This document shows positions 58,521 to 63,988 of a DNA stretch of 64,000 nt, in pieces (position 1 is the stretch's first letter; each line of letters starts with the position of its first letter). A program made the position numbers and the translations under genes. The stretch comes from Propionicimonas sp. GTDB taxonomy: Bacteria; Actinomycetota; Actinomycetes; Propionibacteriales; Propionibacteriaceae. The notes below the pieces were generated by a model. The model was not told where the DNA came from. It did no database searches and was given only the letters and a program-made list of their open reading frames with translations. The stretch lies in assembly GCA_013791955.1 (NCBI GenBank), contig VMSW01000007.1, positions 1,364,001 to 1,428,000 on the forward strand, in the 5' to 3' direction.

Positions 58521-61500
58521 TCAGACTTCGTCCACGGAGCGGAACGAGTCAGCTCCGGGGCGGCGGGACAGGTCGATGCCGAACTCTTCGCTCGCGCGGT
58601 AGTCGTCCTCGGAGTCACGCAGTTCCACCACGGTGCCATCGCTGGAGAGAACCTCCACATTCAGGCACAGCGACTTCATCTCCTTGACCAGAACCTTGAA
58701 CGATTCGGGAATTCCAGGCTCGGGGATGTTCTCGCCCTTGACGATCGCCTCGTAGACCTTGACCCGGCCTGCGACATCGTCGGACTTGATGGTGAGCAAC
58801 TCCTGCAGCGCCCAAGCGGCGCCATAGGCCTCGAGCGCCCACACTTCCATCTCACCGAAGCGCTGGCCACCGAACTGAGCCTTACCGCCCAGCGGCTGCT
58901 GGGTGATCATCGAGTACGGACCGGTGGACCGCGCGTGGATCTTGTCGTCGACAAGGTGGTGCAGCTTCAGCATGTAGATGTAGCCGACACCGACCGGATC
59001 CGGGTAAGGCTCACCGGAACGACCGTCGAAGAGCCTCGCCTTGCCACTGGCGTCGACCAGCTGCAGGCCATCGCGCTGCGGCAGACCGTGCTCGAGCAGA
59101 CCGGCGATCTCGTCCTCGTTGGCACCGTCGAAAACCGGCGTAGCCAAGCGAGCGTTGCCGCCAACCTTTTCCAGCCCAACACTGCGGAGCCGCTCCGCCC
59201 ATGGCTCATCCACCCCAGCGAGGTCCCAGCCGGTCTTGGCCACCCACCCAAGGTGGGTCTCCAGCACCTGGCCAACGTTCATCCGGGAAGGCACGCCCAG
59301 CGGGTTGAGCACGATGTCCACCGGGGTGCCGTCCTCCATGAACGGCATGTCCTCGATGGGCAGGATCTTGGAGATGACGCCCTTGTTGCCGTGACGACCG
59401 GCGAGCTTGTCTCCATTGGAGATCTTTCGCTTCTGAGCGACGTAGACCCGCACCATCTGGTTCACACCGGGGGGCAGCTCGTCGTCCTCTTCACGATCGA
59501 AGACGCGCACGGCAATGACCGTGCCGGACTCACCGTGGGGCACCTTCATCGAGGTGTCGCGCACTTCGCGAGCCTTCTCACCGAAGATGGCCCGCAGCAG
59601 TCGCTCTTCCGGAGTCAGCTCGGTTTCGCCCTTCGGGGTGACCTTGCCGACGAGGATGTCGCCGGTGCCAACCTCAGCGCCGATGCGGATGATGCCGCGC
59701 TCGTCGAGATTGGCGAGCATGTCCTCACCGATGTTGGGGATGTCGCGAGTGATCTCTTCTGCACCCAGCTTGGTGTCGCGGGCATCGATCTCGTGCTCTT
59801 CGATGTGGATGCTGGTGAGAATGTCGTCTTGCACCAGGCGCTGGCTGAGGATGATCGCGTCCTCGTAGTTATGGCCTTCCCAGGGCATGAACGCCACCAG
59901 AAGGTTGCGACCCAGGGCCATCTCGCCACCGTCGGTGCAGGCACCGTCGGCCATGGGAGAGCCAACCTCGACCCGTTGACCGGACGCGACCAACGGACGC
60001 TGGTTGATGCAGGTGGCCTGGTTTGAACGACGGAACTTGGCCAGCCGGTAGCTGCTGTAGGTGCCGTCGTCATTGGTGACATCGATGATGTCGGCGCTGA
60101 CGGCGGTGACCACACCGGCTTTGCTGGCCACGGTGACGTCACCAGCATCGATCGCTCCGCGGTACTCCATGCCAGTGCCGATGAACGGCGCCTCGTTGCG
60201 GATCAGCGGAACAGCCTGACGCTGCATGTTGGCGCCCATCAGGGCCCGAGAGGCATCGTCGTGCTCGAGGAACGGGATCAGCGCCGTCGCGACCGACACC
60301 ATCTGGCGCGGCGAAACGTCCATGTACTGAACCTGGTCAGGAGCAACCTCATCGGCGTCACCGTGCTTCTTACGCACGAGCACGCGATCTTCGATGAACT
60401 TGCCGCCCGCGGCCAGCTTGGCGTTTGCCTGGGCGATGACGTAACGATCCTCGAAATCGGCGGTGAGGTAGTCGATCTGGTCGGTGACCAGGCCGTCAAC
60501 GACCTTGCGGTAAGGCGTCTCGATGAAGCCGAAGGCATTGACCCGGGCGAAGGAAGCCAGCGAGCCGATCAGACCGATGTTCGGGCCTTCAGGAGTCTCG
60601 ATCGGGCACATCCGGCCGTAGTGGCTGTGGTGGACGTCACGCACTTCCATGCCAGCACGATCACGCGACAGACCGCCGGGCCCGAGCGCTGACAGGCGGC
60701 GCTTGTGAGTGAGGCCGGCCACCGGGTTGGTCTGGTCCATGAACTGCGACAACTGGGAGGTGCCGAAGAATTCCTTGAGCGCCGCCGAAACCGGGCGGAT
60801 GTTGATCAGGGTCTGTGGCGTGATCGCCTCGATGTCCTGAGTGGTCATCCGGTCCCGAACGGTGCGCTCCAACCGGCCAAGGCCGATCCGGAGCTGGTTT
60901 TGGATCAGCTCACCGACGGTGCGAAGCCGGCGGTTGCCGAAGTGATCGATGTCGTCGGTTTCGACGATGGTCTCGCCCAGTTCCGTGCGACCCTCGTGCA
61001 GCATCACGATGTAGCGGATGGCCGCGACGATGTCCTCGATGGTGAGCACCTGGGTGTCGAACGGCAGCGACAGGCCGAGCTTCTTGTTGATCTTGTAGCG
61101 ACCAACCTTTGCCAGGTCGTAGCGCTTTGGATTGAAGTAGTAGTTCTCCAGCATCTGCTGGGCAGCTTCACGGGTCGGCGGCTCGCCCGGACGCAGCTTG
61201 CGATAGAGATCCAGCAGCGCCTCGTCAGTGTTGGCGGTGTGGTCCTTTTCCAGGGTCAAGCGGATCGACTCGAACTCACCGAACTCAGCCAGGATCTGCT
61301 CGTTGGTCCAACCCAGCGCCTTCAGCAGGACGGTGACGTTCTGCTTGCGCTTGCGGTCGACCCGCACGCCCACCATGTCGCGCTTGTCAATCTCGAACTC
61401 CAGCCAAGCGCCCCGGGACGGGATCATCTTGCAGGTGAAGATGTCCTTGTCGGAGGTCTTGTCGGCGGTCTGCTCGAAGTAGACACCAGGAGAGCGCACC

Positions 61501-61994
61501 AGCTGGGACACCACGACGCGCTCGGTGCCGTTGATGATGAAGGTGCCCTTATCGGTCATCAGCGGGAAGTCGCCCATGAACACGGTCTGGCTCTTGATCT
61601 CGCCGGTCTCATGGTTCATGAACTCCGCGGTCACGAACAGCGGCGCAGCGTAGGTGAAGTCCTGGTCCTTGCACTCCTCGGTGGTGTGCTTGGGTTCCTC
61701 GAACCGGTTGTCGCGGAAAGACAGCGACATGGTCTGAGATAGGTCCTCGATCGGGGAGATCTCTTCGAAGATCTCTTCCAGGCCCGACTTGGTGTTGACG
61801 TCGGTCCTACCCGCGGCTTTTGCTACGGCGACCCGGTTGGCCCAGGTCTCGTTTCCGATCAGCCAGTCGAAGGATTCGACCTGGAGATCCAACAGATTGG
61901 GAACCTCTAGCGGCTCGTGGATCTTCGCAAAGGAAATCCTCCCGCTGGGTGAGACAACATTGGTGTTCTTCGACGCAGTGCGCGAGACGGCCAA
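58521..61994 (-). CDS. rpoB: RNA polymerase beta subunit
   Basis: 1157-aa beta subunit. Start TTG 61994 ([12 protein letters not shown]) has GGAAGG eight bases upstream and matches actinobacterial RpoB; the upstream ATG at 62039 would add 15 residues. Motifs: [20 protein letters not shown], the rifamycin region [40 protein letters not shown], and the C-terminal [20 protein letters not shown]. Relative to E. coli numbering, 516 D, 526 H and 531 S are intact, but positions 518, 521 and 522 are T, V and A (residues 422, 425 and 426 here). Confidence 0.98.
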
Positions 61995-62092
61995 GGTGGG
62001 GTCCTTCCAGAAGCCCGGGCGTTGCCGGTTTCGTTGCACGCAGAACGGCCCGCGTCAAGGCACGGGTCGTCGATGGCATTGGGCAAAGCGTT

Positions 62093-62122
62093 AGCCTACC
62101 GGAAGGCCCCGAATTTCTGCAA
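62093..62122 (-). promoter_or_regulatory. Candidate rpoB promoter
   Basis: Minus strand: TTGCAG (62122-62117), 18-bp spacer, TAGGCT (62098-62093). Initiation near 62086 would give a leader of about 90 nt to the TTG start. Confidence 0.65.
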
Positions 62123-62326
62123 ATGACCCTGGGCACGCCGATCGCCCTCGCCCGAGAGTCGATCCAGGCGAGCTCGCAGGATCGACAGTGATCCGCGCCC
62201 AACTGCCACCCGGGCCAGCTGTGTGCCCCATGATAGCCACGCCCAATGGTCCTTTTTCTACTTCAAGGTGAACGCCGACTCACCGCGACGGGCGCGTGGC
62301 TCAGCTGAGAGGTCCGGACACACCTA

Positions 62327-62381
62327 GGGCCGGTGCCTGTAGGCAGCGGGAGGGGTTGCCGCACCTTACAGTCACCGGCCC
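62327..62381 (-). repeat. Long imperfect hairpin downstream of the XRE regulator
   Basis: Arms 62327-62349 and 62359-62381 pair at 19 of 23 positions (outer GGGCCGGTG perfect), nine-base loop. It follows the regulator by about 70 bp. No T run, so terminator, structured RNA or processing site are all possible. Confidence 0.65.
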
Positions 62382-62436
62382 AGGCGGTGTACTCATCCGA
62401 CGCGCTAGGGGGGCGCCGACTGGTATAAGTCCACCA

Positions 62437-62462
62437 GACTTGACCAGTTGGTGTCAAGTCTT
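62437..62462. promoter_or_regulatory. TTGAC/GTCAA palindrome over the regulator stop codon
   Basis: Perfect 9-bp arms AGACTTGAC and GTCAAGTCT separated by eight bases. The half-sites are the same as in the operators at 63751-63784, and a further TTGACA follows on the regulator side. It is a candidate third binding site for the regulator, or a weak terminator. Confidence 0.55.
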
Positions 62463-63710
62463 TGTCAACGTTTCTTCCTCGGAATCTCCGAAACTCTGTC
62501 GCCAGGCCTTTACCGCGGCCCGCATCCGGCCCTCATGCTCAAGCGACTCAGCCGCGCCTCGGAACTGGGCGCGGGCCTCTGGCTCGCGTCCAAGGGCCAG
62601 CAGAGCTTCAGCCCGCAACAACTCGGTGTTGCTACGAGACAGTGCCGTCGCGCCCATTACCGGATCGACCAGCACCTCAGAGGTGATCCGCAGCGCCTCC
62701 ACCGGATCCCCGGTACGCAATGCGAGCTGCGCCTCTACCTGCCGTAGTTCGACCAGGTCGTAGGTGTTGCCAAGGATCTCCAAGCCCAGGGCCGCGGTAC
62801 GAACCAACTGCGGCACCCCGTCCACAATGCCCGCACTCAGCAGGCAACTGGCCGCCGACCGATGGAACCGTGACCAAAGGCGCAGGTCGCGGCGAGCATC
62901 CAGCAACTCCTTGGCCTCCCGGTGATGGGCGATACCTGAAGCCGCGTCGCCAGCCGCGAACTCCGCGGTGCCGATGGCCCAAGCGATCATTCCGCGGGAG
63001 TGATCGGAGGTCAGTTGCGGGGCCAATTCGGCGAGTCGGCGAAGGTAGCGGCTACTCTCGTCAGGCGAGTGACCTGCCTCCGACATGGCGCTGACTAGGG
63101 ACATTAATGCCTCGGCCGCAATAATCGGTGGCGCACTCGAGGAGGCCTCTACTGCCCGCGCCCCGTAGGCAACGGCCCAACCGAGATGGTCAGCGGCACG
63201 GTGGGAGATGGACGCCAGAGACAACGCCTGGGAACGCGCTACCGCAAACCGACGGGCGGTTGGGTGTTCAGCCAACCGCTCGGCAAGGTCAGCGGCGTCG
63301 GCGAACTCGCCCGAGGCGAACAACGCCTGCGCCATCACATAGCGCGATTCCCACTCACGGCCCAGATCGCCAGCCGCAACTGCAGCCTCGGCCGCCTGCT
63401 TGGCATGCCGCAGCGCTGCGTCCCAGTCGTGGTCTGACCATGCTCGCTCAGCTACCAGGAGGTCTTCGATGGGGTCACGGATGGCTTGGATGCCATCGAC
63501 CTTGCCGGTGACACCCCACTCCAGCAGCGACACTCCCAGTCGACGAGACACAAAGTCGAGGACTTCAGGGGTCGCTACTCGGCGTCCGCTCTCCAGATGG
63601 GAGATGTAGCTGCCCGAATACTTGCCGTCACCAAGCTCCACCTGCGACAGGCCCTTCTTCCGGCGGGCTTCACGGAGCAATGCACCGAACTCAACCGCAC
63701 TCGTGTCCAC
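62454..63710 (-). CDS. XRE-family HTH regulator with TPR-like sensor domain (RRNPP-like)
   Basis: This 418-aa protein has an N-terminal helix-turn-helix (residues about 8-62: FGALLREARRKKGLSQVEL, then SGSYISHLESGRRVATPEVL) followed by about 350 residues of paired helices with TPR-like spacing. Examples are WDAALRHAKQAAEAAVAAGD, ALFASGEFADAADLAERLAE, GTAEFAAGDAASGIAHHREA and ALLALGREPEARAQFRGAAE. HTH plus TPR is the plan of RRNPP peptide receptors such as NprR (about 420 aa). GTG 63710 has GAGAGG nine bases upstream; TTG 63731 lacks a ribosome site. It is divergent from a short exported peptide gene and shares palindromic operators with it. That it senses this peptide is inference. Confidence 0.85.
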   Translation of the reverse strand: MDTSAVEFGALLREARRKKGLSQVELGDGKYSGSYISHLESGRRVATPEVLDFVSRRLGVSLLEWGVTGKVDGIQAIRDPIEDLLVAERAWSDHDWDAALRHAKQAAEAAVAAGDLGREWESRYVMAQALFASGEFADAADLAERLAEHPTARRFAVARSQALSLASISHRAADHLGWAVAYGARAVEASSSAPPIIAAEALMSLVSAMSEAGHSPDESSRYLRRLAELAPQLTSDHSRGMIAWAIGTAEFAAGDAASGIAHHREAKELLDARRDLRLWSRFHRSAASCLLSAGIVDGVPQLVRTAALGLEILGNTYDLVELRQVEAQLALRTGDPVEALRITSEVLVDPVMGATALSRSNTELLRAEALLALGREPEARAQFRGAAESLEHEGRMRAAVKAWRQSFGDSEEETLTKT

Positions 63711-63750
63711 GCTACGCGACCTCTCTGTCAATTTTCTGGTCCATCAAATC

Positions 63751-63765
63751 TGTCAAATCTTGACA
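63751..63765. promoter_or_regulatory. Operator palindrome 1 between regulator and peptide gene
   Basis: TGTCAA-ATC-TTGACA, perfect 6-bp arms with a three-base centre. Its right arm is the -35 hexamer of the peptide-gene promoter, so occupancy would affect initiation. Further TGTCAA half-sites lie at 63726 and TCAA at 63744. Confidence 0.7.
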
Positions 63766-63788
63766 AACTAGTCAAGCTTGACTAACTT
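63760..63788 (+). promoter_or_regulatory. Promoter of the small peptide gene
   Basis: TTGACA (63760-63765, perfect -35), 17-bp spacer, TAACTT (63783-63788, weak -10). Initiation near 63795, leader about 30 nt with GGAG before the ATG. A strong -35 with weak -10 and a palindrome spanning the spacer suits activator- or repressor-controlled expression. Confidence 0.75.
63769..63784. promoter_or_regulatory. Operator palindrome 2 in the promoter spacer
   Basis: TAGTCAAGCTTGACTA is a perfect 16-bp palindrome that fills the region between the -35 and -10 of the peptide-gene promoter and reaches two bases into the -10. Half-sites TTGACT/AGTCAA are like those of palindrome 1. The minus-strand TTGACT could also be the -35 of the regulator gene (CAGATT 17 bp downstream), giving overlapping divergent promoters. 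Confidence 0.75.
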
Positions 63789-63826
63789 CTAGTCATCGAG
63801 CCAGTCAAGAGAGAGGCTTTGGAGCC

Positions 63827-63988
63827 ATGAACTTCCGCAGGATCATCGCTACCGTAACTATCACCGGCGCCATCATGGCCCTTCCTATCACTTTGGTCGC
63901 TTCCAACGGCATGAGCGCCGGCGGAGTAGGCGGCACTTCCAAGATCATCACCATCCAGGGTGGACAGGGCAACTGGCCCCTGAAGTGA
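63827..63988 (+). CDS. Small exported peptide precursor, candidate signalling pheromone
   Basis: A 53-codon gene with ATG 63827, GGAG five bases upstream and stop TGA at 63986-63988. The product has a basic start (MNFRR), a hydrophobic helix (residues 6-25, IIATVTITGAIMALPITLVA) and a small-residue region SNGMSA that could be cut after residue 31. That leaves a 22-residue Gly-rich tail with a hydrophobic centre (SKIITIQ) and end GQGNWPLK. It has no cysteines and no LPxTG or lanthionine features. I know of no named family. Size, export signal and divergent XRE-TPR neighbour fit a peptide pheromone precursor; a small secreted protein of other function is the alternative. Its coding status rests on ribosome site, promoter and signal-peptide logic. 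Confidence 0.72.
   Translation: MNFRRIIATVTITGAIMALPITLVASNGMSAGGVGGTSKIITIQGGQGNWPLK

Follow-up and report, generated by a model that had tools for sequence, protein, structure and literature searches.

The window, a stretch of 64,000 nucleotides, comes from a genome of 3.10 Mb in 11 contigs. Close to its right-hand end lie a regulator gene, a very short gene divergent from it, two candidate operators and a structured RNA. From left to right the features are:

58521-62039, minus strand: rpoB (context gene)
62323-62420, minus strand: small RNA of about 98 nt, with two hairpins whose loops are C-rich (CCCCCC and ACCCCTCCC)
62428-62457, minus strand: small-RNA promoter read by eye, -35 TTGACA at 62457-62452, spacer of 18, -10-like TGGACT at 62433-62428
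62440-62457: candidate operator 2, TTGACCAGTTGGTGTCAA, in minus-strand reading TTGACACCAACTGGTCAA; overlaps the regulator stop codon
62457-63710, minus strand: regulator coding sequence, 418 aa in the ORF reading; GTG start at 63710, stop codon at 62454-62456
63752-63782: candidate operator 1, overlapping palindromes GTCAAATCTTGAC (63752-63764), TTGACAAACTAGTCAA (63760-63775) and GTCAAGCTTGAC (63771-63782)
63760-63788, plus strand: peptide promoter read by eye, -35 TTGACA at 63760-63765, 17-nt spacer, -10-like TAACTT at 63783-63788
63827-63988, plus strand: ORF of the peptide precursor, 53 aa, MNFRRIIATVTITGAIMALPITLVASNGMSAGGVGGTSKIITIQGGQGNWPLK

As a preliminary description of this DNA had proposed, the minus strand encodes a 418-aa HTH-TPR protein, on which the ORF, a match to HTH_3 and a TPR-like predicted fold agree, and a divergent gene for a short exported-type peptide stands 116 nt away, counted between the two start codons, its ORF being as described. 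GTG 63710 is the most likely start of the regulator; an alternative TTG start at 63731 would lengthen it to 425 aa. The pair had also been placed next to rpoBC; rpoB does lie on one side, and open frames recognised by sequence as rplL and rplJ lie on the other, just past the window end (64192-64611 and 64599-65219 in window numbering). Because these two follow there, the unit sits between rplL and rpoB, an interval in which, within the window, no protein gene besides the regulator and the peptide is evident. The unit is larger than first described, the minus-strand RNA at 62323-62420 being added behind the second palindrome.

Comparisons were drawn across a close set of 37 loci (L002, L014, L022, L027, L030, L031 and L032-L062), mostly from Propionibacteriaceae and one from Curtobacterium; culturable carriers among them are Micropruina glycogenica (L048), Propionicicella superfundia DSM 22317 (L049) and Curtobacterium sp. 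ISL-83 (L056). Loci judged to be on the same contigs (L003-L013, L015-L021, L023-L026, L028 and L029) were left out, and within the set the peptides of L032 and L033 are identical.

At both promoters the palindrome, read by eye on the transcribed strand, starts with TTGACA and is followed by a -10-like hexamer about 17 nt further on. Operator 1 covers the -35 and spacer of the peptide promoter and operator 2 those of the small-RNA promoter, so placed that the palindrome at the regulator stop looks like the operator of the latter. The small-RNA promoter has a 17-nt spacer in many relatives, and two of them (L053 and L055) read by eye as TTGACA-17-CATACT at the regulator stop. A site over the -35 and spacer suggests repression, which we propose as the mode of control because the palindromes sit in that position.

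The preliminary description had noted TTGAC/GTCAA palindromes in the intergenic promoter and over the regulator stop, and these were located and found to be conserved. The pattern TTGACN5-9GTCAA occurs upstream of the regulator in 31 of the 37 close loci. It also stands at the regulator stop in 25 of 35, the sequences of L031 and L062 ending too early for this second count, whereas the remaining 274.9 kb of the close loci has four sites. Across the 3.10-Mb genome it is found at 10 places, two of them at this locus, and a reversed control pattern at 39. The few genome sites and the enrichment in close loci thus indicate that the palindromes are more than chance. The other eight genome sites fall mostly inside long ORFs (L064, L173, L174, L176 and L177), two are unclear (L067 and L175), and the sole intergenic one (L063), about 40 nt before an ORF, has no TTGACA half-site; a larger direct regulon was rejected on these grounds, in a scan that covered TTGACN5-9GTCAA sites.

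Evidence that the RNA behind operator 2 is a conserved structure comes from an alignment of 20 loci (19 distinct). Its 19 pairs are standard in 94.1% of cells, against 31-43% when the structure is slid along the alignment. Two-sided changes occur in nine pairs (5.7 in shuffles; 8 of 500 shuffles reach nine) and in 50 cells (16.6 in shuffles; none of 500 reaches 50). The covariation support comes from the long second hairpin, the first showing one-sided changes only. The window RNA has a folding z of -3.63. An RNA model, R1, matched 21 of 146 relatives, 20 of which are regulator carriers with the match beside the regulator. These carrier matches are expected by construction, and the absence from other genomes is therefore the informative part; ten regulator carriers gave no R1 match, in a search whose size entails stricter filters under which weak matches can be lost. 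The twenty-first match is weak (E 3.4e-4; G094, locus L111, about 2048-2141) and lies in another family, in a genome with no regulator match; at that locus neither an HTH-TPR ORF nor any short exported-type ORF with a WP tail was seen. In L050, L053, L055, L058 and L059 the place downstream of the regulator is taken by another conserved RNA, which has a CGUCCCCCAAGCCCU loop and a second long hairpin, and the RNA on the regulator's 3' side looks further diverged in L060 and L027.

Several other identities for this RNA were considered. Rfam gave no convincing match for the window RNA or those of six relatives; a sub-threshold hit to mir-1304 on the opposite strand, overlapping the RNA, has E 1.1 and was taken as chance. 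A small protein read from the RNA (ATGAGTACACC...) was rejected, its ATG being absent in L014, L042 and L045-L049 and a 2-nt insertion lying behind it in L038 and L039. Pairing with the ribosome-binding region of the peptide gene found no support: the mean duplex energy was -25.9 over 24 true pairs and -26.9 with shuffled leaders. The defining feature of 6C RNA (RF01066) is a pair of hairpins, each with at least six C in its loop. This RNA resembles the window RNA in being a small RNA whose hairpins have C-rich loops, and by eye the window RNA fits the two-C-rich-hairpin description, its second loop, CCCCUCCC, not being six consecutive C; the window RNA differs in standing behind an operator, beside an HTH-TPR regulator. 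RF01066 did not match the window RNA (up to E 5) or the RNAs of six relatives (up to E 3). Among 60 genomes scanned it was found in none of the 36 at family level, and its one match, in G103 of another family, was under the cut-off, as was the control, C. glutamicum. The 6C RNA is reported to occur widely among actinobacteria, to have C-rich loops and to be more abundant in stationary phase (PMC9569102).

The promoter at operator 2 might instead mainly drive rpoBC, the RNA being the 5' leader of an extra rpoB transcript and the system tuning RNA-polymerase synthesis. The promoter points at rpoB, and a motif of the RpoB N-terminus lies 339-780 nt behind the regulator stop in 26 of the 37 close loci, and at 996 nt in L044, where the regulator frame is broken; rpoB also follows in G034 and G043, and no clear T run comes after the strong hairpin. 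We nevertheless regard this reading as unlikely. Judged by eye, a separate promoter for rpoB seems to lie a short way upstream of it, near 62090-62125, with a similar sequence in relatives that lack the regulator; since this appears to hold for carriers and non-carriers, rpoB is the less likely target of operator 2. Moreover, the operator is present in none of 10 regulator-less rpoB upstream regions (the rpoB start was located in 10 of 21 loci), the distance and sequence between the RNA and rpoB vary widely, and L051, L052 and L056 have the pair with no rpoB adjoining in the stretch examined. The rpoB leader itself (about 62040-62130, minus strand; GACGACCCGTG...TTGACGCGGGCCG) has a possible hairpin and is similar in carriers and non-carriers of the family.

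The short ORF is conserved beside orthologous regulators with its frame and signal intact, a check that the preliminary description had itself set. In 36 of the 37 close loci the divergent ORF is intact and 46-103 aa long, and its N-terminus is basic-hydrophobic; the exception is L054, a MAG locus in which the frame is broken and the other frame reads GSGEWPQIKK. The tail carries G-x0-2-W in 35 of the 36 intact precursors, with Tyr in place of Trp in the remaining one (L037). Tryptophan is followed by proline in 27, by tyrosine in three and by another residue in five, and five precursors of the close set carry three to five tandem copies of the motif. Comparison within groups indicates that the peptide frame is under purifying selection: 45 of 46 pairs have a dN lower than their dS, and the first, second and third codon positions show 539, 489 and 941 differences. 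Conservation is concentrated in the signal and the tail, while the linker varies in length and sequence. The export signal was assigned by visual inspection together with a scripted hydropathy rule, and sites resembling the A-x-A of signal peptidase precede the tail in some precursors, again by eye (e.g. SHAQA-GGGEGHW in L053 and L058). The conserved signal and Trp motif, variable linker and tandem copies together make the pattern that of a pheromone precursor. The 53-aa peptide matched no Pfam or NCBIfam family; its C-terminal GGQGNWPLK is proposed as the candidate pheromone.

The regulator begins with an XRE-type HTH domain (about residues 7-65; Pfam HTH_3 at 2.4e-9, HTH_31 also matched) and continues as a TPR superhelix (about residues 80-406). 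The predicted structure is all-helical with a TPR-like superhelix, the Pfam TPR matches all being below curated cut-offs (TPR_14, 5.6e-4). RRNPPA receptors are described as having "5 to 9 TPR" (PMC9765709), and the regulator has that architecture, an HTH N-terminus and then a superhelix of 5-9 TPR repeats, in a fold common to unrelated TPR proteins. In fold comparison the model matches Rap, NprR and AimR, but unrelated TPR proteins too. By sequence, RRNPP receptors match it in HTH stretches only (ComR at 3.3e-4; chain 4yv6/4yv9 at 3.1e-3, where 4YV9 is Rgg, PMC9765709), with no match beyond the HTH at E 0.01. Stronger HTH matches are found elsewhere (immunity repressor 8bny, 4.9e-8; C.AhdI, 2.4e-6; ClgR, 8.6e-6), and the TPR part matches designed consensus TPRs. 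Conserved polar and aromatic residues of the TPR part occur only in A-helices (W120, R171, E211, W244, W279, R281 and D318), and the helices lining the groove are the most conserved portion of the domain. We propose that the regulator is a cytoplasmic peptide receptor; its architecture, its fold and the confinement of those residues to A-helices support the earlier view of an "RRNPP-like" pair.

Relatives of the regulator occur in 42 of 146 genomes at E<=1e-3, some of them HTH-only or partial, and full-length relatives are present in the genus and family (31 loci). A phage collection gave no match at E 1e-3, and plasmids gave eight partial matches, seven in Streptomyces and one in Embleya, so that a phage or plasmid origin was rejected. 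Beside the homologue of Streptomyces sp. Mg1, two small ORFs have no terminal Trp motif.

In a phylum-level sample of 396 genomes, a regulator profile detected relatives in 54 at E<=1e-8; with the broader profile A5, at E<=1e-30, they turned up in 103 of 394 genomes of the class. Divergent tails beside distant regulators read NWPHH, NWPKH, GYPWPK, GFPWPK, GNWPDPM (three times), TVGGSWP (three times), DIEWP (twice) and GGIWCC. Some precursors in distant genomes are very short, 28-30 aa, and consist of little more than a membrane helix and an NWPHH-like tail. A uniform test asked for an ORF of 24-110 aa on the divergent strand, no more than 700 nt away, that has a Shine-Dalgarno-like site, begins with a basic-hydrophobic stretch and includes Trp among its final 14 residues; the Trp criterion was chosen after the first peptides were known. 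Such an ORF lies beside 28 of 84 distinct regulators outside the close set, a count that includes two doubtful cases (L125, which looks spurious, and L129, with Trp in the signal helix only). Controls gave 0 of 81 in the next 700 nt, 1 of 62 on the downstream side and 4 of 84 on the same-strand upstream side; an earlier count put the background for the stricter "WP" tail at two matches in 186 kb. The 84 are best-scoring or hand-picked profile matches, with a few from the first search for relatives, rather than all matches; regulators without an HTH match or with less than 700 nt upstream were dropped, and the loci from the class search (L179-L227) were fetched once the Trp criterion had been chosen, some repeating earlier genomes. 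Among the 56 regulators without such an ORF are most of a large clade whose genomes measure 6-11 Mb. Given 28 of 84 against low controls, and given the 56 negatives, the pairing is by these counts far from random, yet not universal in the regulator protein family, and the peptide-regulator system is not confined to the lineage of the window.

We think it likely that the unit is a peptide-pheromone system working like those of the Firmicutes RRNPP(A) family, in which the regulator represses the peptide gene and the adjacent regulatory RNA until re-imported peptide relieves repression. Comparison among genomes supplies the parts: a short precursor whose N-terminus is Sec-like and whose tail has a conserved G-x-W(-P), encoded divergently from an HTH-TPR regulator and linked to it in nearly all close homologues and many distant ones, and an operator, TTGACA-N5-GTCAA, over the -35 and spacer of two promoters, that of the peptide gene and that of the RNA of about 98 nt. 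The regulator would bind both operators and, when unliganded, repress both promoters by blocking the -35. The precursor would be exported and trimmed, and its Trp-containing tail would be re-imported; the source genome encodes five oligopeptide-binding-type proteins of SBP_bac_5, a common family present in 11 of 14 control genomes. The returning tail may bind the concave groove of the TPR domain, lined by the conserved A-helix residues, and so release the regulator, whereupon the pheromone would stimulate its own production and the small RNA would be made in a burst. Since the RNA would act on mRNAs through its C-rich loops, the output would be post-transcriptional.

It is also conceivable, if quite improbable, that the precursor is never re-imported and instead binds the regulator inside the cell, reporting the state of export or the membrane and hence secretion capacity or growth rate. 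The position inside a cluster of ribosomal-protein and RNA-polymerase genes would suit such a role, as would the distant precursors of 28-30 aa that are almost only membrane helix and NWPHH-like tail, but the A-x-A-like sites seen by eye before the tail of some precursors argue against it, and precursors with several tail copies are easiest to understand if processing takes place outside the cell. It is very unlikely that the small protein is an effector, an antimicrobial or toxin-like peptide that is secreted or inserts into the membrane, held in check by the HTH-TPR protein as in an autoregulated peptide-immunity or toxin-antitoxin-like pair. It is small, of exported type and divergent from a repressor-like gene with operators at its promoter, but conservation is largely limited to its signal region and a short Trp motif, with a variable linker between them, and several precursors carry two to five tandem copies. 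In addition, no further protein gene is evident in the window from rplL to rpoB, and TPR conservation is highest in the groove-lining helices.

The pheromone circuit that we favour resembles the RRNPP(A) systems of Firmicutes (Rap, Rgg/ComR, NprR, PlcR, PrgX and AimR) in its HTH followed by 8-9 TPR-like repeats, its adjacent short exported-type precursor, its candidate operators at the pheromone promoter and its fold matches to Rap, NprR and AimR. It differs in phylum, in the G-x-W-P tail motif, in the multi-copy form of some precursors and in having a structured RNA as the second operator-bearing target. In the agr/RNAIII system of Staphylococcus a quorum signal controls a regulatory RNA through the second promoter of the same locus, and C-rich loops of that RNA contact mRNA; the receptor is a membrane histidine kinase and the signal a cyclic peptide. 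The proposed likeness is a quorum-controlled RNA from a second promoter of the same locus, with C-rich loops for contact with mRNA, whereas the receptor in the window would be cytoplasmic and DNA-binding. Gamma-butyrolactone-type signalling has in common with the window system that it serves population signalling in the actinobacterial phylum, but its signals are made by enzymes rather than being gene-encoded peptides, and its receptors belong to another family.

In Bacillales RRNPP systems the pheromone gene is described as lying immediately downstream (PMC9765709), whereas in the close set it is divergent. One large RRNPP survey covers genomes of Firmicutes and viruses (PMC10075063); a second covers Firmicutes, and its main text has no word beginning "actino" (PMC9765709). 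Both present peptide quorum sensing with cytoplasmic receptors as a Firmicutes trait, and actinobacterial signalling is presented mostly as a matter of small molecules: a review of actinobacterial quorum sensing names gamma-butyrolactones and similar small molecules for Streptomyces, AI-2 for Propionibacterium, and cyclic or modified peptides in general (PMC4748050). Searches of open-access PMC papers yielded no description of such peptide-regulator pairs in actinobacteria.

With less assurance than for the unit itself, we lean toward the view that Actinobacteria have their own ancient, phylum-wide class of gene-encoded pheromones with C-terminal Trp motifs (NWP, GIWY, EWP and WCC), read by cytoplasmic HTH-TPR receptors, and that Propionibacteriaceae gained an RNAIII-like, pheromone-controlled RNA with C-rich loops between rplL and rpoB. 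Variants of the peptide and its likely receptor are found across many actinobacteria, a group from which hardly any such system is known. Conserved Trp-tail peptides beside HTH-TPR regulators in many actinobacterial families would offer a signal, open to direct testing, through which populations control their metabolism and natural-product genes, and the pheromone-controlled RNA would, by the comparison with agr/RNAIII drawn above, be a second case of that circuit design.

Neighbours that look biosynthetic by eye were seen in two cases. In a 9-Mb genome, L147 (the same as L183) has a 43-aa exported-type peptide ending in ASIEWP (1246-1378) in tandem upstream of an HTH-TPR gene (1486-2685), and an adenylation-domain-like, NRPS-like gene adjoins the pair on the other strand. 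In Curtobacterium sp. ISL-83 (L056; 256-4317 and 4992-6194) the regulator and a precursor with four copies of AGEGNWP adjoin several enzyme genes in a row, with tRNA-synthetase-like and FAD-oxidoreductase-like ones among them, which together resemble a biosynthetic cluster. Adjacent exported-type peptides end in or near WCC (PGGIWCC, HWCCG) in L112, L113, L213, L223 and L226, and are perhaps disulphide-bonded or modified. Small exported-type ORFs with a common WSDGH tail stand beside more distant HTH-TPR genes in L134 and L146 and may represent a further peptide type.
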